A stretch of 33,158 nucleotides of DNA from Thermoleophilia bacterium (lineage in GTDB: Bacteria > Actinomycetota > Thermoleophilia > Gaiellales > Gaiellaceae): contig JAICZB010000002.1 in the NCBI GenBank assembly GCA_025933895.1, positions 1-33,158 of the forward strand, given 5' to 3'. Under the pieces are notes generated by a model that was not told the DNA's origin, did not search any database, and saw nothing but the letters and a program-made list of their open reading frames with translations. Positions 16,788 to 33,158 of the stretch are shown here, piece by piece (the first letter of the stretch is position 1; every line of letters begins with the position of its first letter). Position numbers and translations under genes: made by a program.

Positions 16788-17657
16788 ATGTCCAAGCAGA
16801 ACGGGGCGCCTCCGTTTGCGTCCGCCGAGGACGTGCAGACATTCGAGAACGCGCTGGCGGACACGCCCACGAGCCCGCGCTCACGCGCCTGGCTCCTGAA
16901 GCGTGCGGCGCTCGGCGCCGGCGTCGTCGCGGCCGCGACTCCGCTGGGGCGCGCGCTCGCGAAGAGCGCAGCCGACACGCCGCAGGACGTAGGTACGACC
17001 GCGGTCACGGCAGAGGCCCTCGCCGTCACCTACCTCACCGAGCTGATCGGCCGCCTCGGCTCGAAGCTCGGCAAGGCGGAGAAGCCGCTGAAGGCGGCGA
17101 ACCAGGCGGAACAGGATCACTACCTGTTCCTGAGCAAGGCGGGCTTCGCGCCGCAGACGACGAAGTTCTGGATCCCTGACGCGGCGTTCGACCCGGCCAA
17201 GGTCGCCCCGACGATCGAGGTCTTGGAAACCGTGTTCGTCAACGCCTACCTGATCGGCACGACCGTGTTCGCGAAGGCCAAGAACGACCAGCTCGCGCGC
17301 TACGCGGCCGAGATCTGCGGCGTCGAGGCCGAGCACCGCGCTCTGGCCCGCCAGCTCCAGGGCAAGTTGCCCGACAACCTCGCCTACGAGAGCTACAAGG
17401 TCGAGACGCTGGGCGAGATCGTCGCCGAGCTGAAGGCGGCCGGGATCGGCTTCGGCCAGCAGGGCTCCAAGCCCGGCGCTTTCTACACCTACAACGGCAC
17501 CACCGCCTCCACCGTCGTCTCGCTCGCCAACAACGCACCCGACGAGGCCGTGCCCTTCCCGGTGCCGCACCTCGTCGGCGTCAGGGGCGCACGGAAGACG
17601 AAGCGCGCCAAGCCGCCGAAGGGGATGCCCGAGGGCAACCCGGTCCTGACGGGCTGA
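16788..17657 (+). CDS. Ferritin-like domain protein, exported or membrane-associated
   Basis: Two ExxH motifs (EQDHY, EAEHR) in a helical protein; hydrophobic N-terminal segment SRAWLLKRAALGAGVVAAATPLG. Confidence 0.78.
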   Translation: MSKQNGAPPFASAEDVQTFENALADTPTSPRSRAWLLKRAALGAGVVAAATPLGRALAKSAADTPQDVGTTAVTAEALAVTYLTELIGRLGSKLGKAEKPLKAANQAEQDHYLFLSKAGFAPQTTKFWIPDAAFDPAKVAPTIEVLETVFVNAYLIGTTVFAKAKNDQLARYAAEICGVEAEHRALARQLQGKLPDNLAYESYKVETLGEIVAELKAAGIGFGQQGSKPGAFYTYNGTTASTVVSLANNAPDEAVPFPVPHLVGVRGARKTKRAKPPKGMPEGNPVLTG

Positions 17658-17686
17658 GCCGAGAAGAGACGAGAGGAGCAGAAACG

Positions 17687-18436
17687 ATGACCACCAAGCA
17701 AGCCCAACTGAATACCGACGACGTGCAGACGCTCGACAACGCCTTCCAGCGCCACGGCCTGCCGCCGCTGACGCGACGGGCACTGCTCGCAACTGCCGCC
17801 GGTGCCGCGGTCGCGGCCGGGGTCCCCGGCATCGCCTCCGCCGCGAACGCGGACAGCGCGATGGAGATCGGCACCGCCGCGGTGACTGCCGAGGCGCTGG
17901 CCGTCACCTACCTCAGCAACCTGATCGAGAAGGGCGGCCACGCCTTCCCCAAGCCGGTGCAGAACGTCCTCAAGGCCGCGAACCACGCGGAGCAGGACCA
18001 CTACCAGGCACTGCACGGGCTCGGCTTCAAGCCCTTGACGACGAAGTTCTGGATCCCGAACGCCGCGTTCAACCCGAAGAACGCCGCCCCGATCATCGAG
18101 TACCTCGAGTCGGTGTTCGTCAACGCGTACCTGATCGGAACGACCGCGTTCGCCGGCGCGGGCCAGGCCGACTTCGCCCGCTACACGGTCGAGATCGGCG
18201 CCGTCGAGGCCGAGCACCGCACGCTCGCCCGTGCGCTGCAGGGGAAGCTCGGCGACAACCTCGCCTTCACCAGCTACACGGTGAAGACGATCCCCGAGAT
18301 CGTCTCCGCGATCGAGAAGCTCGGGATCGGATTCGGCAAGCGCTCACACGTCCCTGGCCGTTTCTTCATGTACCACGGCCCGCTGCCCGGCACGACAGTC
18401 GCGCTCGACAACGACAAGCCGGACGAGGCGGCCTGA
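17687..18436 (+). CDS. Tat-exported ferritin-like domain protein, paralogue of the preceding gene
   Basis: Twin-arginine signal LTRRALLATAAGAAVAAGVPGIASAAN; shared blocks GTAAVTAEALAVTYL, ANHAEQDHY, TTKFWIPNAAFNP, EYLESVFVNAYLIGTTAFA, VEAEHRTLARALQGKL. Confidence 0.85.
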   Translation: MTTKQAQLNTDDVQTLDNAFQRHGLPPLTRRALLATAAGAAVAAGVPGIASAANADSAMEIGTAAVTAEALAVTYLSNLIEKGGHAFPKPVQNVLKAANHAEQDHYQALHGLGFKPLTTKFWIPNAAFNPKNAAPIIEYLESVFVNAYLIGTTAFAGAGQADFARYTVEIGAVEAEHRTLARALQGKLGDNLAFTSYTVKTIPEIVSAIEKLGIGFGKRSHVPGRFFMYHGPLPGTTVALDNDKPDEAA

Positions 18437-19556: not shown

Positions 19557-20330
19557 GTGGGACGGCTCCCGACACGCCTCGGCCACAGCGACGAGGCCAC
19601 GCTCGTCGAGCATCTCGATGAGCTGCGCTGGCGAGTCGTCGTCATGCTCGCCGCGCTAGCCCTCGGCACGGCGGTGGCCTTCGCCTTCCACGGCCACATC
19701 CTCGAGTGGCTGAACCAGCCCCTCCCGGAAGCGCGGCGACACGTCGTCACCTTCGGCGTCGCGGAGCCGTTCACCGTCTCGCTCACCGTCTCGGTCTACG
19801 CCGGGTTCCTGCTCGCGCTCCCGGTCATCCTCTGGCAGCTCTGGTCGTTCCTCGCGCCCGCCCTCGACCCCAAGAGCGAGCGGCGGGTGCTCGGCCTGGC
19901 CGTGTTCGCGGCCGCGCTCGGCGCGGCCGGGATCGCCTTCGGCTACCTCGTCCTGCTTCCCCGCGCGATCCACTGGCTCACGAGCTACGACCAGGCGCAG
20001 TTCCACATCCTCATCCGAGCCCAGGACTACTACAAGTTCGTCTCGACCGTCCTCCTCGGAATCGTGTGCGTGTTCGAGCTCCCGATGGTGGTGCTCGGCC
20101 TCGTCTACCTCGGAGCCCTTACCTCTCGGCAGCTCCGCAGGCATCGGCGGATCGGCTACTTCATCGTCGCCGCCATCGCCCTGGCCCTGCCCGGCCCCGA
20201 CCCCGTCACCACCGCCCTCGAGCTGCTGCCGATGTGGCTCCTCTTCGAAGGATCCATCTGGCTCGCGGCCCTCACCGAACGCCGCATCGCCAAGGCGTTG
20301 CGCCTCGCGACGGCGAGCGGCCCGACATGA
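19557..20330 (+). CDS. tatC: Sec-independent protein translocase TatC
   Basis: LVEHLDELRWRVVVML, EPFTVSLTVSVYAGFLLALPVILWQLWSFLAPAL, FELPMVVLGLVYLGALTSRQLRRHRR. Confidence 0.95.
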   Translation: MGRLPTRLGHSDEATLVEHLDELRWRVVVMLAALALGTAVAFAFHGHILEWLNQPLPEARRHVVTFGVAEPFTVSLTVSVYAGFLLALPVILWQLWSFLAPALDPKSERRVLGLAVFAAALGAAGIAFGYLVLLPRAIHWLTSYDQAQFHILIRAQDYYKFVSTVLLGIVCVFELPMVVLGLVYLGALTSRQLRRHRRIGYFIVAAIALALPGPDPVTTALELLPMWLLFEGSIWLAALTERRIAKALRLATASGPT

Positions 20331-20349
20331 TCGGTCTGCCGGCGCTGCC

Positions 20350-20967
20350 ATGAGGGTCCTCCGCCGCTCCGGCCACCCGGTCACCACTCCGCGGGACCTT
20401 GCGCACCTCTCCGACGAGGCAGTCGTTGCCCTCGTCGCGCGCGCGGAGGAGGGCGCGCTCGGCGAGCTCTACGATCGCTACGGAAGCACCGCGTTCGCGC
20501 TCTCGCTGCGCGTGCTGCGCGACCGGGGGCTCGCGGAGGATGCCGTCCAGGACGCGTTCTTGACCGTGTGGCGGCGCGCGAGCACGTTTCTGCCCGAGCG
20601 CGGCCGTGCATCGAGCTGGCTGCTGACACTCGTGCACAGGCGCGCGGTCGACCTCGTCCGTCGCGAAGAGCGCCACCCCGCCGACCCGCTCGAGAACGAT
20701 GAAGGTCTAGGCGAAGAGCGGTCCGCCGAGGACTCGGCCTGGCTGCGCTTCGAGCGAGAACGCGTGCAGGCGGCGCTCGCGCGGCTACCCGACCAGCAGC
20801 GAGAGGTGTTGGAGCTCGCCTACTACGGCGGCTTCACGCAGTCGCAACTCGCCGAGCGACTCGGCCGGCCGGTAGGGACGATCAAGAGTCAGATGTTCGC
20901 TGCTCTCTCGCGCCTCCGCGAAGGCCTCGAGCCGCAACCCTCGGAGGAGCCGTGGAGGACGAGGTGA
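20350..20967 (+). CDS. ECF RNA polymerase sigma factor
   Basis: Region 2 (FALSLRVLRDRGLAEDAVQDAFLTVWRRA) and region 4 (RLPDQQREVLELAYYGGFTQSQLAERLGRPVGTIKSQMFAALSRLRE). Confidence 0.93.
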   Translation: MRVLRRSGHPVTTPRDLAHLSDEAVVALVARAEEGALGELYDRYGSTAFALSLRVLRDRGLAEDAVQDAFLTVWRRASTFLPERGRASSWLLTLVHRRAVDLVRREERHPADPLENDEGLGEERSAEDSAWLRFERERVQAALARLPDQQREVLELAYYGGFTQSQLAERLGRPVGTIKSQMFAALSRLREGLEPQPSEEPWRTR

Positions 20968-21596
20968 TGCACGAGCTGACCGCCGGATACGCGCTCGACG
21001 CCCTCGAGCCCGATGAGGCCCGGGCGTACGAGAGCCATCTCGGCCGCTGCGCGCCCTGCCGCGAGGAGCTGGCCGAGCTCGGCGACCTCACCGAGGCACT
21101 CGCGCACGCGGTGCCCGCCGCGGCGCCCCCTGCGGAATTGCGGCGGCGCATCTTGGCTGCGGCGCGCGCGGAGAGTCGCCCGGCCGGACCCGGTCGACCG
21201 CGGTGGGCGCTTCCGGCTGTCGGCCTTGCGGTCACCGCGTCGTGCACCGCGCTGGTCCTGGGAGTGTTGGCGGCAACACGTCCGTCGCCCGCCCGGCTGA
21301 GGACACTGCCGCTCCGGGGCGCCACAGGAGCGCTCGTCCTCTCCGGCGACCGCTCCGCGGTGCTCATCGTCTCCGGCCTTCGTCCGGCGCCCGGAGGTCG
21401 GACCTACGAGATCTGGGTCATGAAAGGCGCGACCTCGGCGCGACGGGCCGGCATCTTCTCCGACACCGGCAAGACGGCACGAGTGCGGCTCAGCCGACGC
21501 GTGGAGACCGGAAGCTTCGTCGGGGTCACCCTCGAGCGTGCCGGCGGGGTAACGCACCCGACCGGTGCGCCACTCTTCCGCTCCGCACCCGCGTAG
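20967..21596 (+). CDS. Anti-sigma factor (zinc-finger N-terminus, RskA-like C-terminus)
   Basis: ATG overlaps sigma stop (TGATG); HLGRCAPC zinc anti-sigma motif; TM PAVGLAVTASCTALVLGVLAA; RTYEIWVMKG. Confidence 0.9.
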   Translation: MHELTAGYALDALEPDEARAYESHLGRCAPCREELAELGDLTEALAHAVPAAAPPAELRRRILAAARAESRPAGPGRPRWALPAVGLAVTASCTALVLGVLAATRPSPARLRTLPLRGATGALVLSGDRSAVLIVSGLRPAPGGRTYEIWVMKGATSARRAGIFSDTGKTARVRLSRRVETGSFVGVTLERAGGVTHPTGAPLFRSAPA

Positions 21597-21605
21597 TTCG
21601 AGAGT

Positions 21606-21636
21606 GAATCGAACCTGCGCACGCGGTCTAGGAAGC
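21606..21636 (-). repeat. Repeat copy A: degenerate tRNA-Arg(CCU) anticodon-loop-to-T-arm fragment
   Basis: GAATCGAACCTGCGCACGCGGTCTAGGAAGC, 29/31 identical to copy B at 24594-24624. Confidence 0.7.
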
Positions 21637-21706
21637 TCGCCGTCGGTAGACGGTTCGGGGTGAGAGCGATTGGTGTGAAGTTCGTCGTCGGCGGAATACG
21701 CGAACC

Positions 21707-22045
21707 GTGCCGGGAGAGGATGAGCGGGCGCGGGAGGCGGTCTCGGACCAGACACGGTTCCGGGCCGCGAACGATCGTTTGCGGCGGATCGTGCCCGGTT
21801 ACGGATTCAAGGGCGGAGATCGTGCGCCGTTCATCTGCGAATGTGGTGACCCCGGCTGTTTCGAGGCCGTGATGCTCAGTCTGGAGGAGTACGATCGCGT
21901 GCGCGCCAACCCAAGCTGGTTTGTGCTCGTGGCCGGCCACGAAGACCACGAGGCGACGTACGAGCGGGTGGTCGAAGCCGAGCGCGGCTACGCGACCGTC
22001 GAGAAGATCGGCTTCGCCGCGGCAGAAGCGGCGCGGCTCGGGTAG
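21707..22045 (+). CDS. Small CxCx4C...GHE family protein, paralogue 1
   Basis: FICECGDPGCFEAVMLSLEEYDRVRANPSWFVLVAGHEDHEATYERVVEAERGYATVEKIG. Confidence 0.8.
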   Translation: MPGEDERAREAVSDQTRFRAANDRLRRIVPGYGFKGGDRAPFICECGDPGCFEAVMLSLEEYDRVRANPSWFVLVAGHEDHEATYERVVEAERGYATVEKIGFAAAEAARLG

Positions 22046-22052
22046 CGAGACG

Positions 22053-22409
22053 TCAGCTACCTGGGGAGGACCAGCCGGTGTCCGGCGGCGGGTTTGCGTC
22101 GAGGCTGGTCTGCGCGTGGGTGAGCATCTGGAGCGTGTCGCCCTGGGTGCGCCCGGCCGCGTTGTTCCAACCGTCCAGCTCCGAGTCGGGAATGACGCCG
22201 GAAATGCCCCACAGGGCATCTCTCAGAGCGTCGACTCCGCCGTCGGGTCTGTCGGACACGACGGCGAGCGCGCCCCGGAGCGACCAAGCGGTCGCAGATG
22301 GATCAGATGCCTCCACAGCAGAGCCGGAACTGTTGCGGGCCTCGGCACCGCAACACCAGCCGCTCGCAATCAGAGCCGCTGTCTCGCGCAGGAACGCATG
22401 CCCGTCCAT
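22053..22409 (-). CDS. DUF6197-like small protein
   Basis: LIASGWCCGAEARNSSGSAV...ATAWSLRGAL...LDGWNNAAGRTQGDTLQMLTHA resembles the W-C-x-G-A...R-W-...G-A...WND-x-x-R-T pattern of that family (recognition from memory). Confidence 0.65.
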   Translation of the reverse strand: MDGHAFLRETAALIASGWCCGAEARNSSGSAVEASDPSATAWSLRGALAVVSDRPDGGVDALRDALWGISGVIPDSELDGWNNAAGRTQGDTLQMLTHAQTSLDANPPPDTGWSSPGS

Positions 22410-22445
22410 CCGACGGGCCTACCCGCTAAGGCTCGGGCTAACCGC

Positions 22446-22763
22446 TCAGTTCAGCCACGGGGCAAGGTCACGCTCCAGCTGACGGCAACCGCGCGGGGCG
22501 GCGATCCGCTTCTGGAGGCGTCGAGCCTCCACGACGCAGAGTGTCGGCACCGTTTCCACGCCGAAGCGCTCCGCCAGATCCGGATGGTCGTCGACCGAGA
22601 CCCGCACCAGTTCGAAGGTGTGGTGGTTGCTTCGATGCTGCAAGACCTGCGCGATCCAACCGTCCACCCGGCGGCAGCGACCGGACCGAGGCGAATGAAA
22701 GAAGACGAGCTTCGGCCTGGCAGTCGAGGCGTGCGCGTTCGCGTCTGGTGCTGCGGCCGTCAC
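22446..22763 (-). CDS. Thioredoxin-like fold protein with atypical active site
   Basis: PKLVFFHSPRSGRCRRVDGWI...VSVDDHPDLAERFGVETVPTLCVVE (cis-Pro VPT). GTG start overlaps the 22760 stop (GTGA). Confidence 0.7.
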   Translation of the reverse strand: MTAAAPDANAHASTARPKLVFFHSPRSGRCRRVDGWIAQVLQHRSNHHTFELVRVSVDDHPDLAERFGVETVPTLCVVEARRLQKRIAAPRGCRQLERDLAPWLN

Positions 22764-23113
22764 GGTGTGCTCCCGTTTCGGCGCGGGTTGGTCGACTCGG
22801 CGATCGCGCTGGCAACACCGATCTTTTCCACGACCACGTACTGCTCGGTGGTCTCGACGACGTCTTCGACCGCCGGATCTTCGTGTCCGGGGAGAACGAA
22901 GAAGCGGGCTCCCTGCTCGCGGAACCGCTCGTACTCGTCGTGGCTCAGCTCGAGCATCGCTGCACAATCGGGGCTCAGGCACTCGCAGATGTAGGAGTTC
23001 GGCCGCAGCTCGTCCGCGTAACGGTCGGAGAGCGCCGCGATCCGCTCGTTGACCTCACGAAAGAGGGTCTGGTTCAGGGCTGCGCGTCTACGCCGCGTAT
23101 CGAGGTCGTCCAC
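22760..23113 (-). CDS. Small CxCx4C...GHE family protein, paralogue 2
   Basis: LFREVNERIAAL, YICECLSPDCAAMLELSHDEYERFREQGARFFVLPGHEDPAVEDVVETTEQYVVVEKIG. Confidence 0.85.
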   Translation of the reverse strand: MDDLDTRRRRAALNQTLFREVNERIAALSDRYADELRPNSYICECLSPDCAAMLELSHDEYERFREQGARFFVLPGHEDPAVEDVVETTEQYVVVEKIGVASAIAESTNPRRNGSTP

Positions 23114-23282
23114 GACTTGCTCCTTCCGGCACCGGAACAGGCACGTTCACCGGGGAAGAAGCCTCAGATACTCGACACAAGCGGGTTTCTGGACTCGAGA
23201 GGGGCACGAAGGAAACGCCCTCGGCACGCCGAGAATAACAGGCCGCAGCTGGATTCGTGCAGACCGCAGAGCTAGAGTGATC

Positions 23283-23354
23283 ATGGCCAGGATCGAGCCC
23301 CCGTCCTCGGCCGTTACACGAGCAGTCCTCGTCGACTTTGGGGTGGTGGAGTGA
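23283..23354 (+). CDS. Possible short leader peptide upstream of the ANTAR gene
   Basis: ATG at 23283 encodes MARIEPPSSAVTRAVLVDFGVVE*; its TGA overlaps the ANTAR ATG (TGATG). TAGAGT lies 4 nt upstream of the ATG. Confidence 0.35.
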   Translation: MARIEPPSSAVTRAVLVDFGVVE

Positions 23355-23935
23355 TGGGTGCCCGTCAGAGCGCGGGTCGGTTGCGGGTGTTGATCGCCGA
23401 TGAGAGCCCCGAGCGGCTTGCGGTCCTGGCAGCGGCGGTGCGGGGTCTCGACCACGAGATCGTCGCCGCCGAGATGGAGGTCGGCGACGCCGGTCGCGCG
23501 ACCGCGCACGAGCACCCCGATGTCGCACTCGTCGCGCTCGGGCAGAGCGACGAGCATGCCCTCGAGATGATCTCCAAGATCGTCGCCGAGTCCGAGTGCC
23601 CGGTGATCGCCGTGCTCGCTGCCACGGACAGCTCCTTTGTCCAGGAGGCCGCCAAGCGCGGCATCTTCGCCTACGTCGTCGAATCGGACCAGGGCGCGCT
23701 GGAGAGCGCGCTCGAGATCGTCCTGCTCCGCTTCGCCGAATACCACGGGCTGGAAGACGCCTTCGGCAGACGGGCCGTGATCGAACGCGCCAAAGGAATC
23801 CTGATGGAACGCCACCAGTTCGACGAACGCGAAGCGTTCGAGTTGCTGCGACAGCACGCCCGGCGCAACAACCAGAAGATCGTCGAGGTCTCCAACTCGG
23901 TCATCGACGGCGCACTCCATCTGCCACCGCAATAG
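23354..23935 (+). CDS. ANTAR-domain response regulator
   Basis: Receiver-like N-terminus LRVLIADESPERLAVLAAAVRGL; ANTAR RRAVIERAKGILMERHQFDEREAFELLRQHARRNNQKIVEVSNSVID. Confidence 0.9.
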   Translation: MGARQSAGRLRVLIADESPERLAVLAAAVRGLDHEIVAAEMEVGDAGRATAHEHPDVALVALGQSDEHALEMISKIVAESECPVIAVLAATDSSFVQEAAKRGIFAYVVESDQGALESALEIVLLRFAEYHGLEDAFGRRAVIERAKGILMERHQFDEREAFELLRQHARRNNQKIVEVSNSVIDGALHLPPQ

Positions 23936-24126
23936 CCGCGCGTGTTTCCAGCAGCCGAGCATCGGCTACGCTGGAGTAGCCGAGGCGGCCACCTTGAGTG
24001 CCCCTCACTGATAGCCCGACACCCGCTCAGCGGCGTGCGCGAGGTCACTTCCCCGGCACACACCAACCGAGGGAGCGACATGCGCCCGACGACCAGGATT
24101 GTGTTCGCCGCAAGGCGAGCCACGTG

Positions 24127-24468
24127 ATGAGCGACCGGCAAGAAGAGATCGGCGAAGCACAGGTCACCTTCCGCAACGCCAACGAGACCATCCAAGCATC
24201 CGCCGACAGCGCCGCCATCCTCGGCAACGTTCCCTTCGTCTGCGAATGCCCCAACAGCGACTGCACGGAGATCGTCCGCCTCAGTTTCGACCAGTACGAA
24301 GCAATCAGGCAACACCCGACCCGCTTCTTCAACCACACGGGCCACGAGCAGTCCTCGGTCGAAGCAGGCGCCGAACGAATCGTCGCCGTCGCCGACCAAC
24401 TCACCGTGGTCGAGAAAGTCGGAGTCGCCGGCGAGGTCGCCGCAGAGGCTTACCCCCGCCGAAGCTGA
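24127..24468 (+). CDS. Small CxCx4C...GHE family protein, paralogue 3
   Basis: VTFRNANETIQAS, FVCECPNSDCTEIVRLSFDQYEAIRQHPTRFFNHTGHEQSSVEAGAERIVAVADQLTVVEKVG. Confidence 0.83.
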   Translation: MSDRQEEIGEAQVTFRNANETIQASADSAAILGNVPFVCECPNSDCTEIVRLSFDQYEAIRQHPTRFFNHTGHEQSSVEAGAERIVAVADQLTVVEKVGVAGEVAAEAYPRRS

Positions 24469-24580
24469 ACGACAGGCATGTCGAGGCACGCATCCCCGGG
24501 CGAGAGTTCGCTGCGGCGCTAGTTCCCGTAATCGAGCGACTTCTGTTGCCCCCTGAGTTGCCCAGTGCGGCTGAACGTAA

Positions 24581-24624
24581 GTGCCCCCGGCAAGAATCGA
24601 ACTTGCGCACGCGGTTTAGGAAGC
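24581..24624 (-). repeat. Repeat copy B: 3' half of tRNA-Arg(CCU)-like gene (att remnant)
   Basis: Reverse complement reads GCTTCCTAAACCGCGTGCGCAAGTTCGATTCTTGCCGGGGGCAC: anticodon loop TTCCTAA, perfect T-arm GCAAG-TTCGATT-CTTGC, acceptor 3' strand CGGGGGC-A. The 5' half is absent. Confidence 0.82.
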
Positions 24625-24745
24625 CGGCCGAGAATGTCCTCCGTGTACGTCTGTGTCCGCACAGTCCGTCGTGAACGGGCTTGCGTGTCCGCTGGGTGCG
24701 CTCAGTACTCCGCAATACCAGTGTGTCCGGCTTGTCCTCGTAGAC
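24625..24745. repeat. Extended element-end repeat, copy B
   Basis: Shares GGCCGAGA.TGTCC, CAGTCCGTC.TGAACGGGCT, CAGTGTGTCCGGCTTGTCCTCG with 29299-29424. Confidence 0.65.
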
Positions 24746-24887
24746 GGCCGGTAGACGAGAGCGCCTACAAATACCTGCCCCTAAGAGGACGGCGGCGCTG
24801 CGTCTGGTGAGAGAACCGTCGCCTGGCCCAGTAGCGGGGAATGACCTTGAGCGATTCCGGCTTGCCAATACCGCATTACTAAGCGTT

Positions 24888-24916
24888 CGGTAGCGCGCCG
24901 GTAGCTGGCCGGTAGC
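24888..24916 (+). promoter_or_regulatory. Three direct heptamers CGGTAGC at exact 11-bp period (putative operator)
   Basis: CGGTAGC at 24888-24894, 24899-24905, 24910-24916, upstream of the 24968 start. Confidence 0.5.
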
Positions 24917-24967
24917 GAGGGAGCCGAGGGTTCGGGCACGACAGTGCCAACCCGAAGGGAGCAGCAA

Positions 24968-25861
24968 ATGAGGAAGAAAGCGCTTGTCGTTCTCGCGTGC
25001 TGCGGCGCATTCCTGGCCGCGGGCTTGCAGGGAGCGGCGGCCGGCTCTGACCGCACCGTCGTCTGCGACCAGAACACGCAGACGTTCAGCGGCCAGACGA
25101 CCAACCTAATCGTGCCGATCGGCGGCTACTGCGCCATCGACCACGCGACTATCACGCAGAACCTGATCGTGCAGAACGGCGCGGGAACGGACGTGACGAA
25201 CTCTTCGATCGGGTACAACGAGACCCTAGGCAACGACTCGGGCGCCACGCTGGGCAACTCGACGATCGGCCACGACGTCAAGGTCGGCTTCCACGGCTTC
25301 TTCGGCGCAGGCCTCGCCAGGATCGGGCATGACCTGATTGCGACCCACGCGGGCAGCATCCAAATCGGCAGCACGGGGCCACCACCGGACGGTGCGAACG
25401 GGCGGGTGACCGTCGGCCACGACGTCATCGTCGACGGCTCGCCCGGTCCACCGGATCCCAGCGCCTTCGTGTTCGACAGCCTCTGCGACCTGGACGTAGG
25501 CAACGACCTGCTGATGACGAACCGCTGGGTCACGCTGGGCTTCACGATCGGCGATTCGACGCCACCGTTCTCCGCCTGCGTTGGCACCCAGCCGGACACC
25601 GTCGGCCACGACCTCGTCGTCACGAACAACAAGGCATTGTCGGGATTCTTCGGGCCTTCATCACTCGAAGTCGGCGACATCCAAGTGGGCAACGACGCCA
25701 CGTTCTCGGGCAACAGCGCTGTCCCCGGCGGCGTCCTGGAGTTCAACGACAACACCATCGCCCACGACGCGACTTGCTCGAGGAACACACCGTCGATCAC
25801 GGGCGGTCTCCCGGATGACGGACCGAACCAAGTCGGCGGCACGAACAACGGCTGCCCGTAG
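24968..25861 (+). CDS. Secreted beta-helix-like repeat protein (G-H/N-D repeats)
   Basis: Signal peptide MRKKALVVLACCGAFLAAGLQGAAAG; repeats IGHDVKVG, IGHDLIAT, VGHDVIVDG, VGNDLLMTN, VGHDLVVTNN, VGNDATFSGN, IAHDATCSRN. Confidence 0.8.
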   Translation: MRKKALVVLACCGAFLAAGLQGAAAGSDRTVVCDQNTQTFSGQTTNLIVPIGGYCAIDHATITQNLIVQNGAGTDVTNSSIGYNETLGNDSGATLGNSTIGHDVKVGFHGFFGAGLARIGHDLIATHAGSIQIGSTGPPPDGANGRVTVGHDVIVDGSPGPPDPSAFVFDSLCDLDVGNDLLMTNRWVTLGFTIGDSTPPFSACVGTQPDTVGHDLVVTNNKALSGFFGPSSLEVGDIQVGNDATFSGNSAVPGGVLEFNDNTIAHDATCSRNTPSITGGLPDDGPNQVGGTNNGCP

Positions 25862-25882
25862 CCGATCGGCCCAATCAAGCCT

Positions 25883-25916
25883 GCCGGAGAGGGCCGCTCA
25901 TGCCGCCCTCTCCGGC
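25883..25916 (+). terminator. Intrinsic-terminator-like hairpin
   Basis: GCCGGAGAGGGC-CGCTCATGCC-GCCCTCTCCGGC, 12-bp perfect stem, 22 bp after the stop codon of the secreted protein; no clear U-tract. Confidence 0.65.
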
Positions 25917-26128
25917 CACACAGTTCACCGGGTCGAGAGGGCGAGGCGGTCGCTGGGCCAGCACCCTCTCACCGGGCGGCGAGTCGCGCGTGATACACGC
26001 TTGACGCACGATCCGACGGTCCTCGAGCAGCAAGGGATTCGGCGGCGAGCGCGTCTACCGCGACGGCTTCCAACCGCGCCTCCCTCGAGACCAGCCGCTC
26101 CCCGTGCGACCGCACGGCATTCCGGGCC

Positions 26129-26163
26129 TTGATTCGGGAGCGTGTAACGGCTGAAATTCGGTT
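26129..26163 (+). promoter_or_regulatory. SigA-like promoter for a leaderless Ser/Thr kinase mRNA
   Basis: TTGATT (26129-26134), 17-bp spacer, TGAAAT (26152-26157), 6 nt, GTG start at 26164. Confidence 0.55.
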
Positions 26164-27621
26164 GTGTCGACGCTCGCGCAAGGCACGGTTGTCGGGGGGT
26201 TCCGGATCTGCGAGCCTTTGGGCGCGGGCGCAATGGGAACGGTGTACCTCGCCGCAACGGTCGCGTCGGGCGATCTCGCCGCCGTCAAGATCATCGCCGC
26301 GGGGCCGAGCCACGATATGCGCTTCCGCGAGAGGTTCGAGCGCGAGTGCGCGCTCGCCGCAAGTCTCCGCCATCCCAGTGTCGTCACGACGATCTCCTCA
26401 GGTGAAACCGAGGGCCATCTCTATCTCGCCATGGAGTATGTGGAGGGGTCCGATCTACGCGAGATCCTCCGCTGGGAAGCGCCTCTCGAGCCGGCCCGCG
26501 CCCTTTGGCTGATCGCACAGGTCGCAGATGCGCTCGACGCGGCGCACCAGCTCGGCCTCGTCCACCGCGACGTCAAGCCGGGCAACATCCTCGTGACCGT
26601 GCGCGACGGCGAGGAGCGCGCGCTCGTCTGCGACTTCGGGCTGGCTCGTCACGTCTCCTCGGTCTCGAGCCTCACGGGCGACCGCGGCTTCGTCGGCACC
26701 ATCGACTACGTTCCGCCGGAGCAGATCCACGGAACCCAGGTCGACCGGCGTTCCGACCTGTACTCGCTCGGCTGCGTCCTCTTCGAGTGCCTGGTCGGAG
26801 CGAGGCCGTTCGAGCGGGAGAGCGAGCTCTCCGTCGTGTTCGCGCATCTCAACGACCCCCCGCCTCGCCCGACGGAGTTTCGCCCCGAGCTCCCCGCGGC
26901 CTGGGACGACTTCTTCGCAAAGGCGCTCGCCAAGGAGCCGAGCGAACGGTTTGGCTCCGGCGGCGAGCTCCTCGACGCCGCGCGTACGGCAGCCAGGGGG
27001 AACCGCCGCAGAAGCAGGCGCGTTCGCAGACCGGTGGTCGCAATCGTCGTTGCGACGGCCGTCGCCGCGGCGGTCACCGCCGGATTCGTTCTCGAAGGAG
27101 GAGCAGGCAGGCACGAGCGATCGCAGATCACCCAGAGCGCGATCGCGGGCGCGCCCCTCGGCAGGTCGGCCGGGTACTACAGGAAGCACTTCGGCCCTCT
27201 CAGTTACTCGCTGGCGGGCGTTGTCGACTATCCCACCCTGTCTTTCCAGCAACCGGAAGTCGCCGTCTACTTTCCGAAGCAAAAGACGTCCATCCCCGCG
27301 CCGGGCCAGCGGGCGCACATCATCACGACCTGGAACAGGTCGTACCGCACCGCGGCGGGGATTGGCCCCTGCTCGACCCTTGCCGCGGCGAAACGGGCGT
27401 ACGGCGCTCGCTGGAAGCCGTCGCGCGATGGAATCGTTCTCAAGCACGCGGACGGCGTCCACTCGGCCTACGTGGTGGGAAACAACTTGATCTTCGAGAC
27501 CCAGGACGGCCAAACGGTCTCGGCAGTCGGGCTGTACGAGGGCAACCCTCATGACACGGGAAACGGCAGCCCGCAGGCGTACGCGAATTTCGTCACTTCC
27601 AATCAGACGGCCTGCGAGTAG
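26164..27621 (+). CDS. PknB-like Ser/Thr protein kinase with TM and extracytoplasmic domain
   Basis: GAGAMGTVYLAA, VHRDVKPGNILV, VCDFGLARHV, PPEQIHGTQVDRRSDLYSLGCVLFECLVG; TM VVAIVVATAVAAAVTAGFVL. Confidence 0.93.
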   Translation: MSTLAQGTVVGGFRICEPLGAGAMGTVYLAATVASGDLAAVKIIAAGPSHDMRFRERFERECALAASLRHPSVVTTISSGETEGHLYLAMEYVEGSDLREILRWEAPLEPARALWLIAQVADALDAAHQLGLVHRDVKPGNILVTVRDGEERALVCDFGLARHVSSVSSLTGDRGFVGTIDYVPPEQIHGTQVDRRSDLYSLGCVLFECLVGARPFERESELSVVFAHLNDPPPRPTEFRPELPAAWDDFFAKALAKEPSERFGSGGELLDAARTAARGNRRRSRRVRRPVVAIVVATAVAAAVTAGFVLEGGAGRHERSQITQSAIAGAPLGRSAGYYRKHFGPLSYSLAGVVDYPTLSFQQPEVAVYFPKQKTSIPAPGQRAHIITTWNRSYRTAAGIGPCSTLAAAKRAYGARWKPSRDGIVLKHADGVHSAYVVGNNLIFETQDGQTVSAVGLYEGNPHDTGNGSPQAYANFVTSNQTACE

Positions 27622-29179
27622 CGAGCGTCCAGGAAAAGCGGGTGCGACTCTCCATGGGCGCGAGGCCGCCCGGGCGAGGCCCTCGGTGGACAAGCACGAG
27701 CGGCACGCCTCCCGCCACCAGTGCGCGCCTGGCGTCGCCGATGCCGGCGGTCCGCCAGCCCTCGACGACGCCGATGATCACGACGTCGGCCGACTCCACG
27801 GCGTATCGCAGCCCTTCCGGCGAGGCGGGGGCGAGTATTGGGCGAGTGGAGACGCCGGCGAGCCGCTGCGCCGCCACGGCTGCGTCGGCGAGGAGCCGAC
27901 TCGCGTCCCGACGCCCGCTCTGCGGGTCGGAGCCTGTTCCCAGGAGTACGATCTCGGCGCCGGCGGCGGCCGCGACCCACGTCGCGAGCTCGAGTGCCGC
28001 CCATTCGTGCTCGCCGCCACCGAACGGAACGAAGATGCTGTCCGAGACTCGTGGAGCGCCGGAGACCACTCCGACATCGGCCGGGGAGTGGTCGAAGAGC
28101 GCAGCGAGCTCGTCGGGCAGGTGCTCGCCATCGATCCCTTCCACAGAATTCGTAAGTACGAGCTCGACGGCGTAGGAGTCGGCGAGCCGGACGGCGTCAT
28201 CTGCCGGATTGGTGCTCGTGAAGACCGCCGTCCGAGCATTCCTGCTGAGGCGCCGGCTGTGCGCGTTAGCGACCTCTGCCGCTCCGGCGAGGTCGTCCTC
28301 GTCGGCGACGAGCCGTGCCAGGATCAGCTCGCGTGAGGCCGCAAGCGGCTGCGCAATTGCCAGGAGTTCGTCGAATGCGGAATGGCGCGAGGCGAGCAGC
28401 AGGATCGACCGCGCCTCGTCAACGGCCGCTCGATCGAGCTCGAGCGCCGGATCCTGTTGCAGGATCGCGCGCTCCGCGGCTCGAAGCGCCAAGCCGGGCT
28501 CGATCCCGAACTGCTCGACAAGCTCGCCCCGCGCGTGTCGGAAGACCTCAAGCGCCTCCGCCTGACGCCCCGAGCGATAGAGGGCGAGCATTTGCAGTGC
28601 CCGCAGCGACTCGCGCAGGGGGTACAGGGCGACGAGACGCTCCAGCTCGGCGGCGACCTCTGCATGGCGCCCAAGCGCGAGCTCTGCTTCCGCCAGCCGC
28701 TCGTGCGCCGTGAGTCGGAGCTCCTCTAACCGCCGAGCGTGCGGCACGAAGAACTCCTCGCCACGCAGGTCCCCGAGACCTTCTCCTCGCCAGAGGGCCA
28801 GCGCGTCCTTCAGGAGCTCGACAGCGCCGGCGGCATCAGACCGTGACATGGCTTCGGCCGCGTCGGCCAGCAGCCTCTCGAAGCGCGGGAGGTCGAACTG
28901 GTTCCGCGCGATGTTGATCACGTAGCCGGAGCCCTGCGTACGTATCGTCTCGGGTCCAAGCACTCGCCGCAGTTCGGCGATCTGCTTGTGCACTTGGGTC
29001 ACGGCGGTCACCGGCGGCCTGCCGGCGTAGAGCGCGTCGGCCAGCTCGTCGATCGAGACGACGCGGTTCGCGTTCAGCAGGAGGAGGGCGAGCGTCGATC
29101 GCTGCCGTGGGCCACCGAGCGGAAGGGGGCCGTCGGCGGCGGCGACTTCGATCGGCCCGAGGATCCCGAACCGCAGCAC
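27593..29179 (-). CDS. BTAD/SARP-type transcriptional regulator with C-terminal USP-like region
   Basis: LRFGILGPIEVAAADGPLPLGGPRQRSTLALLLLNANRVVSIDELADALY (winged-helix), then BTAD ARNQFDLPRFERLLADA...LYPLRESLRALQMLALYRSGRQAEALEVFRHAR. C-terminal VGVVSGAPRVSDSIFVPFGGGEHEWAALELATWVAAAAGAEIVLLGTG resembles a universal stress protein fold. Start inferred at GTG 29179. Confidence 0.88.
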   Translation of the reverse strand: MLRFGILGPIEVAAADGPLPLGGPRQRSTLALLLLNANRVVSIDELADALYAGRPPVTAVTQVHKQIAELRRVLGPETIRTQGSGYVINIARNQFDLPRFERLLADAAEAMSRSDAAGAVELLKDALALWRGEGLGDLRGEEFFVPHARRLEELRLTAHERLAEAELALGRHAEVAAELERLVALYPLRESLRALQMLALYRSGRQAEALEVFRHARGELVEQFGIEPGLALRAAERAILQQDPALELDRAAVDEARSILLLASRHSAFDELLAIAQPLAASRELILARLVADEDDLAGAAEVANAHSRRLSRNARTAVFTSTNPADDAVRLADSYAVELVLTNSVEGIDGEHLPDELAALFDHSPADVGVVSGAPRVSDSIFVPFGGGEHEWAALELATWVAAAAGAEIVLLGTGSDPQSGRRDASRLLADAAVAAQRLAGVSTRPILAPASPEGLRYAVESADVVIIGVVEGWRTAGIGDARRALVAGGVPLVLVHRGPRPGGLAPMESRTRFSWTLATRRPSDWK

Positions 29180-29255
29180 CCCGAGAAGGTAGGTGTCGGC
29201 AAGAAGGTTGGCAACCACAGAGAGCTGACCTCCGCCAGCACCGCGCCTACTACTA

Positions 29256-29298
29256 GTGCCCCGGCAAGAATCGAACATGCGCACGCGGTTTAGGAAGC
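29256..29298 (-). repeat. Repeat copy C: 3' half of tRNA-Arg(CCU)-like gene (att remnant)
   Basis: Reverse complement GCTTCCTAAACCGCGTGCGCATGTTCGATTCTTGCCGGGGCAC; one mismatch in the T-stem and one base missing in the acceptor strand relative to copy B. Confidence 0.82.
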
Positions 29299-29424
29299 CG
29301 GCCGAGATTGTCCCGTCCGGTGCGCCTGGGACCGCTCAGTCCGTCCTGAACGGGCTCCTGTTTCCGCCGGGCCCGCTGCATGCGGCTCCGTACCGCAGTG
29401 TCCGGCCTGTCCTGGTGGACGAGT
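29299..29424. repeat. Extended element-end repeat, copy C
   Basis: Shares blocks with 24625-24745, including CAGTCCGTC.TGAACGGGCT and CAGTGTCCGGCCTGTCCT. Confidence 0.65.
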
Positions 29425-29567
29425 AGACAGGCGAAGCCTCAGGCGTAAAGACACTCGCCCATCCGAGACTCCTTCCCTCAGACCGTCGCTACCGTGAGGC
29501 GTTGTCGCTGTCTTCACGGGACAGACGCGGCAGGGGCTTCCTCCTCTACCTAAAAGCCGGAGCCGCT

Positions 29568-29579
29568 TAGACTCGTCTC
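29568..29579 (+). promoter_or_regulatory. -10-like element for a leaderless start
   Basis: TAGACT (29568-29573), 6 nt, GTG start at 29580; no convincing -35 seen. Confidence 0.4.
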
Positions 29580-32500
29580 GTGGTGGTCTGCCCTTCATGT
29601 GGCAGGGAGAACCCCGAGGGCTTCCAGTTCTGCGGTTTCTGCACGGCGGCTCTGATCGAGCAACCTCCTGCCTCAGTTCAGGAGGAGCGGAAGATCGTCT
29701 CCGTCCTTTTCTGCGATTTGGTCGGCTTCACCGCAGCTTCCGACATGGCTGACCCGGAGGATGTGAGGGCCCGGATTCGCCCATATCACCAGCGGCTGCG
29801 GGAGGTGATCGATCGGTTCGGGGGGACGGTGGAGAAGTTCGTGGGGGATGCCGTAATGGCGGTGTTCGGGGCGCCGGCGGCGCACGAGGATGACGCGGAG
29901 CGGGCGGTCAGGGCGGGGTTGCGGATTCTGGAGGCGATCGAGGCTTTGAACGCCGAAGACGCGAGTCTCTCGTTGCAGGTGCGGGTGGGGATCCACACTG
30001 GTGAGGCGGTGGTCGCGCTCGGTGCCCGCCCGGAGGAGGGTGAGGGGATCGTGACCGGCGACGTGGTGAACACGGCGTCCCGGTTGCAGGGTGCCGCCCC
30101 GGTAGGCGGGGTCGCCGTGTCGGAGCAGACGTATCGCGCGACGGAGCGGGTCTTCGACTGGGAGCGGTTGGAGCCGGTGTTTGTGAAGGGCAAGGCGGAG
30201 CCGCTCGCTATTTACCGGCCGGTGCAGGCGCGCGCGCGGTTCGGCAGTGATGTGACGCGGATGCAAGCGACGCCGCTGGTCGGTCGCGAATTGGAACGGC
30301 AGCTGTTGATATCGACGTTTGAGCGGTCGGTGCAGCAGCAGTCCTGCCAGCTGGTGACCGTCGTCGGGGAGCCGGGGGTGGGTAAGAGCCGGCTCTGCGC
30401 GGAGTTGTTCGCGCATATCGAGCAGCGGCCCGGCCTGACCCGCTGGCGGCAGGGGCGCTGTCTGCCCTATGGGGAGGGGATCGCCTTCTGGGCGTTGGGG
30501 GAGGTAGTGAAGGCCGAGTGCGGGATCCTGGAATCGGACTCGCCGCAGGAGGCGGAGGCGAAGCTGGCGCGGGCGGTTCCCGAGGCGGAGCCGGACCGCC
30601 CCTGGCTGCTGGCCCGGCTGGCGCCGCTGGTGGGGGCACCGTCGCAGCCGGCCTCGCAGGAGGAGTCGTTCACCGCCTGGCGGCGCTTCTTCGAGTCGCT
30701 GGCGGCCGGGCGGGAGACGGTGCTGCTGTTCGAGGATCTGCACTGGGCCGACGACGCCCTGCTCGAGTTTCTGGAGCAGCTCGCCGACTGGGCCGAAGGC
30801 GTGCCCTTGCTCCTGCTATGCACGGCCCGGCCGGAGTTGCAGGAGCAGCATCCGAACTGGGCCGCGGGGTTGCGCAACGCACACACGATCAACCTGGCGC
30901 GACTGAGCGACGAGGAGACGGCCCGGCTTGTCTCCTCCTTGTTGCAGCGGACGGTGCTGCCAGTGGACACGCAGCAGGCGCTGTTGGAGCGTGCGGGTGG
31001 GAATCCGTTGTATGCGGAGGAGTTCGTGCGCCTGCTCGCGGATCGGGGCGAGCTTGGCGCCGACACGATGGTGCCGGAGTCGGTGCAGGCCCTGATCGCC
31101 GCTCGCTTGGACACGCTTAGTCCGGAGCGCAAGAGCCTGTTGCAGGACGCCTCGGTCCTGGGCAAGGTGTTCTGGGCCGGCGCGCTCGCTGCGATGGGTG
31201 ACAGGGAGGCCGGGGAGGTGGAGCGGGCCTTGCACGAGCTAAGCCGCAAGGAGCTCGTCCGCCCCAGCCGTACCAGCTCGATGCAGGGTGAGGCTGAGTA
31301 CAACTTCTGGCATGTCCTGGTCAGGGATGTCTGTTACGGCCAGATCCCGCGGGCTAAGCGAGCGGAGAGGCACCAGAACGCCGCGGAGTGGATCGGCGAG
31401 AAGGCCGGCGAGCGGGCAGAAGACTTGGCCGACGTGCTCGCCCACCACTACGTGGCCGCCGTTGAGTTGAGCCGGGCTGTCGGCTTGGCCGATGACCCGC
31501 ACTTACGCGCGCACGCGGTGCGCTATCTCGGTCTGGCCGGGGAGCGCGCATTTGGCCTCGACGTGGAACGGGCCGAACGGAACCTCGCCCTTGCACTTGC
31601 TCTTGCCTCTGAGGACGATCCGCAGAGGCCGCTGCTGCTGGAACGCTGGGCCTGGACGGCGCTTCACCTGAACCGGCTGCAAGAAGCGCGAGACGCACTC
31701 GATCAAGCCCTCACCTTCCACCGGCAGCGAGGAGACACCTTGGGCGTGGGCAGAACGCTCAGCAAACTGCACGCTGTCCTGCGCGAACTCGGCGATCCCG
31801 AGCAGGAGGCGACGCTCGTGGAAGCGCTGCGGCTGCTCGAAGCCGAGCCGCCGGGCCCGGAGCTGGTCTCTGCCTACACGCAACAGGCGCGAGCACTTTG
31901 GCTATCCGGCGCCGGCAAAGAAGCTGTGGTGGCTGCCGACAAAGCGCTGAACCTCGCAGCACGTCTCGATTTGCCCCAACCTGTAGAAGCGCTCGGCCGC
32001 CGTGGCGCCGCTCGAGCAAGCCAGGGCGAGCGAGATGGGATCGAGGAGATGCGCAGGGCGCTCAGTCTCGCTATCGAGCAGAGCGAGAACACAATCGCCG
32101 CGATGCTTTACAACAACCTTTCCATCGAAGCCTGGATCTACGAAGGCCCGCAGGCTGGCTATGACCTAAAGCGCGAGGGGATTGACTTCGCCCGGCGACG
32201 CGGCATCACCACGAACGCCGATTTCATGGCCGTTGGACTGACGTTTTTGTTGGCCGACCTGGGCCTGACCGAGGATGCCGTCACCGAAGCTGCCCGCCTG
32301 GCCGACCGGCTCGAACAGACCTCCAGTGTCAGTTTCCTCGCAGTGCGCTCCCTGCGGCAACTTCTCCTAGCCGAGCGCGGCCAGCACAAGAACGCCCCTG
32401 ACACGAAGGCTACGCTAAAGGCCGCCCGCGACAGCGGCGAACCACAGTATTTGACAATGGCGGTTGCGGGCGCCGCCAGCATCCTCCATGGGAAGAAACA

Positions 32501-32960
32501 GCCCGAACAGGCCCGTCAGCTCCTCCGCGAACTCGACCGGACCCAAGCCGCCCGCAACGACCCGTTCTACGCGAACCTGCTGCCCTGCCTCGTCCGTCTC
32601 GCGCTCGACCTAAGCGACCTCGATCTCGCCCGCAGCTTGACCGAAGGCGTGCTACCCGTCACCGCTCTCTACGAACACGTCCTTGTCAGCTGTGAGGCGC
32701 AAATGGCGGAAGCCGCCGCGAAGCACACCCAAGCGGCCAGCCTTTACACAGACGCCGCCCAACGCTGGCAGCAGTTTGGCAACCTTCCCGAACAGGCATA
32801 CGCCCTCCTCGGCCAAGGCCGCACCCTCCACGCCCTCGCCGATCCGGAAGCCGAGCAGCCCCTCCGACAAGCACGCGAACTGTTCGTCTTCACGGGCTAC
32901 AAGCCAGCCCTCGAGCAGACAGACGCACTGCTCAACCAAGCCCGAGCAGCAGCGAACTGA
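29580..32960 (+). CDS. Zinc ribbon / class III nucleotidyl cyclase / AAA-type ATPase / TPR regulator
   Basis: Zinc ribbon CPSCGRENPEGFQFCGFC; cyclase VSVLFCDLVGFTAASD, VEKFVGDAVMAVFGAP, GDVVNTASRLQ; Walker A GEPGVGKSRL; Walker B VLLFEDLHWADD; long helical TPR-like C-terminus. Confidence 0.93.
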   Translation: MVVCPSCGRENPEGFQFCGFCTAALIEQPPASVQEERKIVSVLFCDLVGFTAASDMADPEDVRARIRPYHQRLREVIDRFGGTVEKFVGDAVMAVFGAPAAHEDDAERAVRAGLRILEAIEALNAEDASLSLQVRVGIHTGEAVVALGARPEEGEGIVTGDVVNTASRLQGAAPVGGVAVSEQTYRATERVFDWERLEPVFVKGKAEPLAIYRPVQARARFGSDVTRMQATPLVGRELERQLLISTFERSVQQQSCQLVTVVGEPGVGKSRLCAELFAHIEQRPGLTRWRQGRCLPYGEGIAFWALGEVVKAECGILESDSPQEAEAKLARAVPEAEPDRPWLLARLAPLVGAPSQPASQEESFTAWRRFFESLAAGRETVLLFEDLHWADDALLEFLEQLADWAEGVPLLLLCTARPELQEQHPNWAAGLRNAHTINLARLSDEETARLVSSLLQRTVLPVDTQQALLERAGGNPLYAEEFVRLLADRGELGADTMVPESVQALIAARLDTLSPERKSLLQDASVLGKVFWAGALAAMGDREAGEVERALHELSRKELVRPSRTSSMQGEAEYNFWHVLVRDVCYGQIPRAKRAERHQNAAEWIGEKAGERAEDLADVLAHHYVAAVELSRAVGLADDPHLRAHAVRYLGLAGERAFGLDVERAERNLALALALASEDDPQRPLLLERWAWTALHLNRLQEARDALDQALTFHRQRGDTLGVGRTLSKLHAVLRELGDPEQEATLVEALRLLEAEPPGPELVSAYTQQARALWLSGAGKEAVVAADKALNLAARLDLPQPVEALGRRGAARASQGERDGIEEMRRALSLAIEQSENTIAAMLYNNLSIEAWIYEGPQAGYDLKREGIDFARRRGITTNADFMAVGLTFLLADLGLTEDAVTEAARLADRLEQTSSVSFLAVRSLRQLLLAERGQHKNAPDTKATLKAARDSGEPQYLTMAVAGAASILHGKKQPEQARQLLRELDRTQAARNDPFYANLLPCLVRLALDLSDLDLARSLTEGVLPVTALYEHVLVSCEAQMAEAAAKHTQAASLYTDAAQRWQQFGNLPEQAYALLGQGRTLHALADPEAEQPLRQARELFVFTGYKPALEQTDALLNQARAAAN

Positions 32961-33079
32961 GACGACCCCGACGAACCGTCACTTCCGTGTCTCTGTCGTT
33001 CCGGCACAGCGTCAGGCGTCATTCCGGAACTCAATGTCATCCTCGCTGCTGTGGCGGCGTCCGGTGGCTGGCAGAGACT

Positions 33080-33158
33080 CGGTCGGCGGCGGCTGACTCG
33101 ATTCCGAATGTCGACTGTTTGGTCTGACCTTCCAGCGTTGTGTCGCCGCCGCCGACCG
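33080..33158. repeat. 14-bp inverted repeat reaching the window edge
   Basis: CGGTCGGCGGCGGC (33080-33093) and GCCGCCGCCGACCG (33145-33158), perfect complement with a 51-nt spacer. Confidence 0.5.

Follow-up and report, generated by a model that had tools for sequence, protein, structure and literature searches.

How did three 3′ halves of the same tRNA gene come to lie in a row, facing the same way, in DNA that has no integrase between them? The stretch in question, called the window here, is the first 33,158 nucleotides of contig JAICZB010000002.1 of a Thermoleophilia bacterium from the family Gaiellaceae (assembly GCA_025933895.1), and the gene is tRNA-Arg(CCU). A 31-bp core occurs in the window on the forward strand at 21606-21636, 24594-24624 and 29268-29298 (copies A, B and C), each time without a mismatch, against 0 expected from 100 shuffles. 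The copies are spaced by 2,988 bp (A-B) and 4,674 bp (B-C). The minus strand of every copy reads TTCCTAAACCGCGTGCGC..GTTCGATTC and corresponds to a tRNA-Arg(CCU) 3′ half that starts in the anticodon loop, while the 5′ half is missing at A, B and C alike. No complete tRNA is detected within the window by ARAGORN, nor does any part of it match Rfam at gathering score. We read A, B and C as the attachment (att) junctions of elements that integrated one after another, site-specifically, at the anticodon loop of a single tRNA-Arg(CCU) gene, with a probability of roughly 0.85; stacked insertion at this gene is well supported.

The three fragments, all on the minus strand, differ in their state of preservation. 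Fragment A (21606..21634) is decayed, having lost the 3′ strand of the T-arm and the acceptor, and carries one change (TTCCTAGACC). Fragment B (24582..24622) is a complete 3′ half in which both the T-stem (GCAAG/CTTGC) and the acceptor strand are intact. Fragment C (29257..29296) has a T-stem mismatch (GCATG/CTTGC), and its acceptor lacks one G. The left strand of its T-stem, GCATG, is that of the present tRNA and the right strand, CTTGC, is that of fragment B, which could reflect a point change or, alternatively, a hybrid. B and C have about 190 bp in common, well beyond the 31-bp core, because their homology runs on for ~150 bp to the right of it. These observations bear out an earlier note on this DNA, made from the letters alone, which had described a core at three positions in one orientation, intervals of about 3.0 and 4.7 kb without a visible integrase, the anticodon loop through the T-arm on the minus strand with the acceptor kept in B and C, and a 5′ half absent each time.

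The same note had proposed that elements integrating into the 3′ end of a tRNA gene left these fragments behind, and comparison with relatives supports it. Among 103 genomes of the family, 68 contain a tRNA-Arg 3′ half, about 26 of them in two or more copies. Twelve genomes (G002, G005, G007, G015, G069, G078, G079, G101, G105, G114, G115 and G116) have a fragment and the intact tRNA on the same contig, and all 16 linked fragments are displaced downstream of the intact gene on the tRNA strand. In nearly all 16, identity between tRNA and fragment starts at TTCCTAA, the anticodon loop, which would place the crossover at a known sub-site. This heptamer, located on the minus strand at 24616..24622 in B and 29290-29296 in C, is therefore the putative crossover (overlap) segment. 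In G015, five copies lie within 38 kb. Integrases stand 50-260 bp ahead of a fragment in G007, G116 and G015, which has two (one of them broken), and elsewhere inside the island in G115 and G079. These tyrosine integrases of the sister islands fall by sequence into at least three separate groups. Since integrases of several lineages use it, the tRNA-Arg(CCU) site is a shared target.

The source genome is a draft of 2.37 Mb in 317 contigs and is 79% complete. It contains the core in five places: the three in the window, a fragment at C14:6792 and the intact tRNA-Arg(CCT) gene at C237:287-358. At their right ends, contigs C237 and C14 share exactly 141 bases in reverse-complement orientation, and the two contigs are therefore neighbours, with the C14 fragment ~3.2 kb behind the intact gene. 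The resulting order is intact tRNA, a gene for a cyclase-AAA-TPR protein, a conserved arm described below, the fragment and a second cyclase-AAA-TPR gene. An intact target gene thus stands at one end of an array. The earlier note had expected such a gene to the right of the window on the minus strand; the gene exists and is joined to the C14 fragment, but its link to fragment C is unassembled. No exact overlap joins the window ends to C14, C237 or C219. A 147-bp sequence at the right end of the contig (33012-33158) recurs at the end of C219 (97%) and in C255 (81% over 67 bp); this dispersed repeat probably broke the assembly there.

A relative, G004, represents the stage that preceded the later insertions, with module A-B still adjoining a tRNA gene. 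Starting 46 bp behind its intact tRNA, 848 bp are 87% identical to window positions 23635-24476, and the counterpart in the window stops about 105 bp behind fragment B. The gene for an ANTAR-domain response regulator in this interval is 93% identical in G004, where it adjoins the tRNA, compared with at most 57% for other homologues in the genus. From the G004 arrangement, fragment B is best read as a displaced tRNA end, and the DNA to its right as later insertions. Synteny of the intervals across distant relatives, which would have been hard to reconcile with integration, was not observed, and the G004 tRNA is the only place with a close ANTAR homologue.

In the mechanism that we propose, each insertion would supply its own tRNA 3′ half, restoring the gene, and would shove the previous 3′ half outward, leaving the order tRNA, newest module, fragment, older module, fragment. 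In the window, A-B would then be the oldest insertion and B-C the next, with the module to the right of C the last to arrive. The recombinase would be a tyrosine integrase that uses the 7-nt loop TTCCTAA as its overlap. The modules that bear the arm may be non-autonomous and be moved in trans by an enzyme whose gene lies outside them.

The arm is the ~150 bp beyond the core that the B, C and C14 fragments have in common. It adjoins both B and C, is present in eight genomes of five genera and ends in the motif GGTAGACGGC-NN-GTAGACG. The arm of att site B (24623..24760, plus strand) has the paired motif CGTAGACGGCCGGTAGACG at its end (24739-24757), at a distance of 122 bp to the core; the arm of att site C (29297..29433, plus strand) ends in the weaker GGTGGACGAGTAGAC. 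Near core A there is a single GGTAGACGG (21645..21653, plus strand), possibly a degenerate arm. In a first search, strong matches to an arm profile were confined to G000, G005 and G015; among retrieved loci they were then also seen in G069, G114 and G036. With a second profile (R2), G071 and G081 joined them; no site of these two genomes had gone into its construction, and three of the newly found sites lie exactly beside tRNA-Arg fragments. The arm-end motif stands 122-124 bp from the core at nine sites in five genomes and three genera, and a shuffled control yields about 1 match (with up to 3 mismatches) in 154 kb. Across genera the middle of the arm is variable while the core and the end motif are kept; information content has its maxima at the core and the arm end and drops beyond the latter. 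These features suggest a putative integrase arm-binding region in which two GGTAGACGG sites, 11 bp apart, keep a nearly constant distance of 122-124 bp to the core. The short overlap and fixed-spacing, arm-type direct repeats that characterize att sites of tyrosine integrases would correspond here to the 7-nt segment and the paired GTAGACG. At one locus in G081 (L213:8271-8289) the arm-end motif lies only 75 bp behind an intact tRNA, as if a module had been deleted down to its arm.

No integrase was found beside any arm, phage and plasmid records have no match to the arm, and viral contigs show no att pattern and one intact tRNA-Arg. A plasmid of Pseudarthrobacter chlorophenolicus (NC_011879.1:33665-33710) carries 45-46 nt of the tRNA-Arg 3′ half at 87% identity, possibly an attP. 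The viral contig IMGVR_UViG_3300037193_002017 (L218:1343-1387) has five GGTAGAYG repeats ~11 bp apart, identical in unit to the arm end, with neither tRNA core nor integrase in the 3 kb examined around them.

Neither the window modules nor any other arm-type module contains an integrase. All seven complete modules of this type, from four genomes, lack one (window B-C, C237-C14, C14, the 1.7-kb and 5.9-kb modules of G005, G114 and G069), and the modules are att-flanked units without integrase or conjugation genes. The most likely reading is that they are non-autonomous islands moved in trans, which is favoured because their att sites are conserved without an enzyme. The earlier note had suggested that the intervals may be remnants; the absence of an integrase stands, but the conservation of the docking site favours non-autonomous elements and makes remnants just one reading among others. 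We put forward, tentatively and as somewhat less probable than not, a broader picture in which integrase-less, often single-gene cassettes with one attachment region (anticodon-loop core plus arm) would be moved in trans by an integrase, pile up behind tRNA-Arg(CCU) and spread signalling, secreted and enzyme genes among the genera of the family, as a tRNA-based counterpart of the integron.

The strongest competitor holds that integrase-bearing islands stacked long ago and have since lost their integrases by deletion in every case, leaving the arms as fossils. The decay of fragment A and of some arm sites fits this explanation, as does the broken integrase in the G015 stack. Yet the arm is kept at nearly fixed spacing, and the core mostly intact, in the very modules that uniformly lack an integrase (7/7), and no integrase remnant lies beside any arm. 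We regard such fossils as a serious possibility, on balance somewhat less likely than not.

Integron gene cassettes, small integrase-less units that often consist of one gene and a recombination site, offer another model, in which the sites would recombine as folded single strands. The modules resemble cassettes in being small and without a recombinase inside, and several of them (C237, C14, G069 and contig C7 of G005) hold a single gene plus the site. They differ in that the target is a tRNA gene, the core being its anticodon loop, in that no integron integrase was identified in or beside them, and in that no folded attC-like site is present: as DNA, the arm folds no better than shuffled sequence (z +0.35 to -1.65), and as RNA it has no supported consensus structure. 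An integron-like system is thus very unlikely. The same can be said of segmental duplication of the tRNA region through homologous recombination, or of misassembly, to which a draft metagenome assembly whose contigs break at repeats might be prone; identity ends exactly at the anticodon loop, module contents differ, and the same layout appears in independent assemblies of other species. Least credible of all is that the repeat is a dispersed element derived from a tRNA and has nothing to do with integration, since the several copies in one genome amount to only 4 fragments, with the core confined to the five places listed above, and linkage and orientation contradict it, the linked copies in relatives always lying downstream on the tRNA strand.

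Several points weigh against stacked integration and movement in trans. The connection between fragment C and the intact tRNA is unassembled because the contig ends 3.9 kb to the right of C, and the evidence as a whole comes from draft metagenome-assembled genomes. In the comparison with G004, the 46 bp (G004) and about 105 bp (window) next to the tRNA end are non-homologous, and the junction is not base-exact because of this short unmatched stretch. At four arm sites (L006:3489-3631, L210:16842-16979, L212:3622-3764 and L214:8744-8882) the tRNA half is missing across the crossover; they have either decayed or integrated into some other target. The analysis found no integrase whose specificity matches, and the modules may have lost their integrases through decay.

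The modules can be set beside known mobile systems. Cis-mobilizable elements (CIMEs) are bounded by att sites, have no recombination genes and are mobilised through accretion with an element that has the same att site. Like them, the modules are att-bounded, without recombination genes and stacked at one site; unlike them, they are small, often with one gene, and a partner integrative and conjugative element (ICE) or integrative and mobilizable element (IME) sharing the att site was not identified here. CIMEs and their accretion with ICEs or IMEs have been reviewed (PMC5704250). The Islander set of 3919 islands includes 125 tandem arrays, only 4 of them with three or more members, and counts members only with an integrase of their own (PMC4383910). 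Its tRNA islands share with the window a regenerated tRNA gene, a displaced 3′ fragment, an anticodon-centred crossover (subsite A) and a single orientation, whereas the window modules have no integrase. The closest known stack is that of the Dehalococcoides ssrA islands, where many tandem islands also follow one RNA gene with 3′ direct repeats and extra conserved bases beside the repeat, and where, again as here, an integration module is present in many of the islands but not in all (PMC3146451). Those islands rely on a serine recombinase that targets the T-loop of tmRNA (PMC3146451), unlike the present case with the tRNA-Arg(CCU) anticodon loop as target and tyrosine integrases in sister islands. 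Among open-licence papers we found no description of the tRNA-Arg(CCU) site or its modules. Stacked tRNA islands are therefore a known kind, and the integrase-less variant with a shared site appears to be undescribed.

Across the family the tRNA-Arg(CCU) gene serves as a landing site for integrases of at least three lineages, and the small integrase-less modules gain a docking site that can be recognised, which makes movement in trans testable. These findings also forecast where accessory genes gather in uncultured soil and permafrost actinobacteria, in arrays that island finders requiring an integrase per island would overlook.

Module A-B (21637..24581, about 2.9 kb), whose right 0.85 kb is the part matching G004, encodes a small protein without a known family (21707..22045, plus strand), a thioredoxin-like protein (22446..22763, minus), a second small protein (22760..23113, minus), the ANTAR-domain regulator (23351..23935, plus) and a third small protein (24127..24468, plus), the DNA of which also lies directly behind the G004 tRNA. 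The three small proteins are paralogues within one module, share a conserved cysteine motif (CEC..xxC) and all fall outside known families. Module B-C (24623..29256, 4.6 kb), with the arm at its left end, encodes a putative secreted protein of no known family (24968..25861, plus), a PknB-like Ser/Thr protein kinase (26164..27621, plus) and an AfsR/SARP-type regulator with Trans_reg_C and BTAD domains (27593..29284, minus), the start of which is uncertain, its longest frame entering fragment C. The module to the right of C (29297..33158), cut by the contig end, carries a signalling protein composed of zinc ribbon, adenylate/guanylate cyclase, AAA_16 and TPR (29580..32960, plus), the same kind of gene as in the C237 and C14 modules. 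Overall, arm-type modules carry cyclase-AAA-TPR proteins, the Ser/Thr kinase, the AfsR-type regulator, secreted proteins, DUF11, M23 and FMN-dependent enzymes, and pieces of phosphatidylserine decarboxylase. The cyclase gene occurs in three modules of the source genome, which has 18 cyclase-domain matches in all; with so few modules we claim no cargo preference.

Directly to the left of fragment A, positions 19557-21596 hold tatC-like, sigma-factor-like and RskA-type anti-sigma genes; tatC-like matches in the genome number three, and this block may therefore itself be accessory. Further left, 16971-18341 is an adjacent duplication with a period of ~881 bp and ~76% identity, probably a pair of neighbouring paralogous genes.

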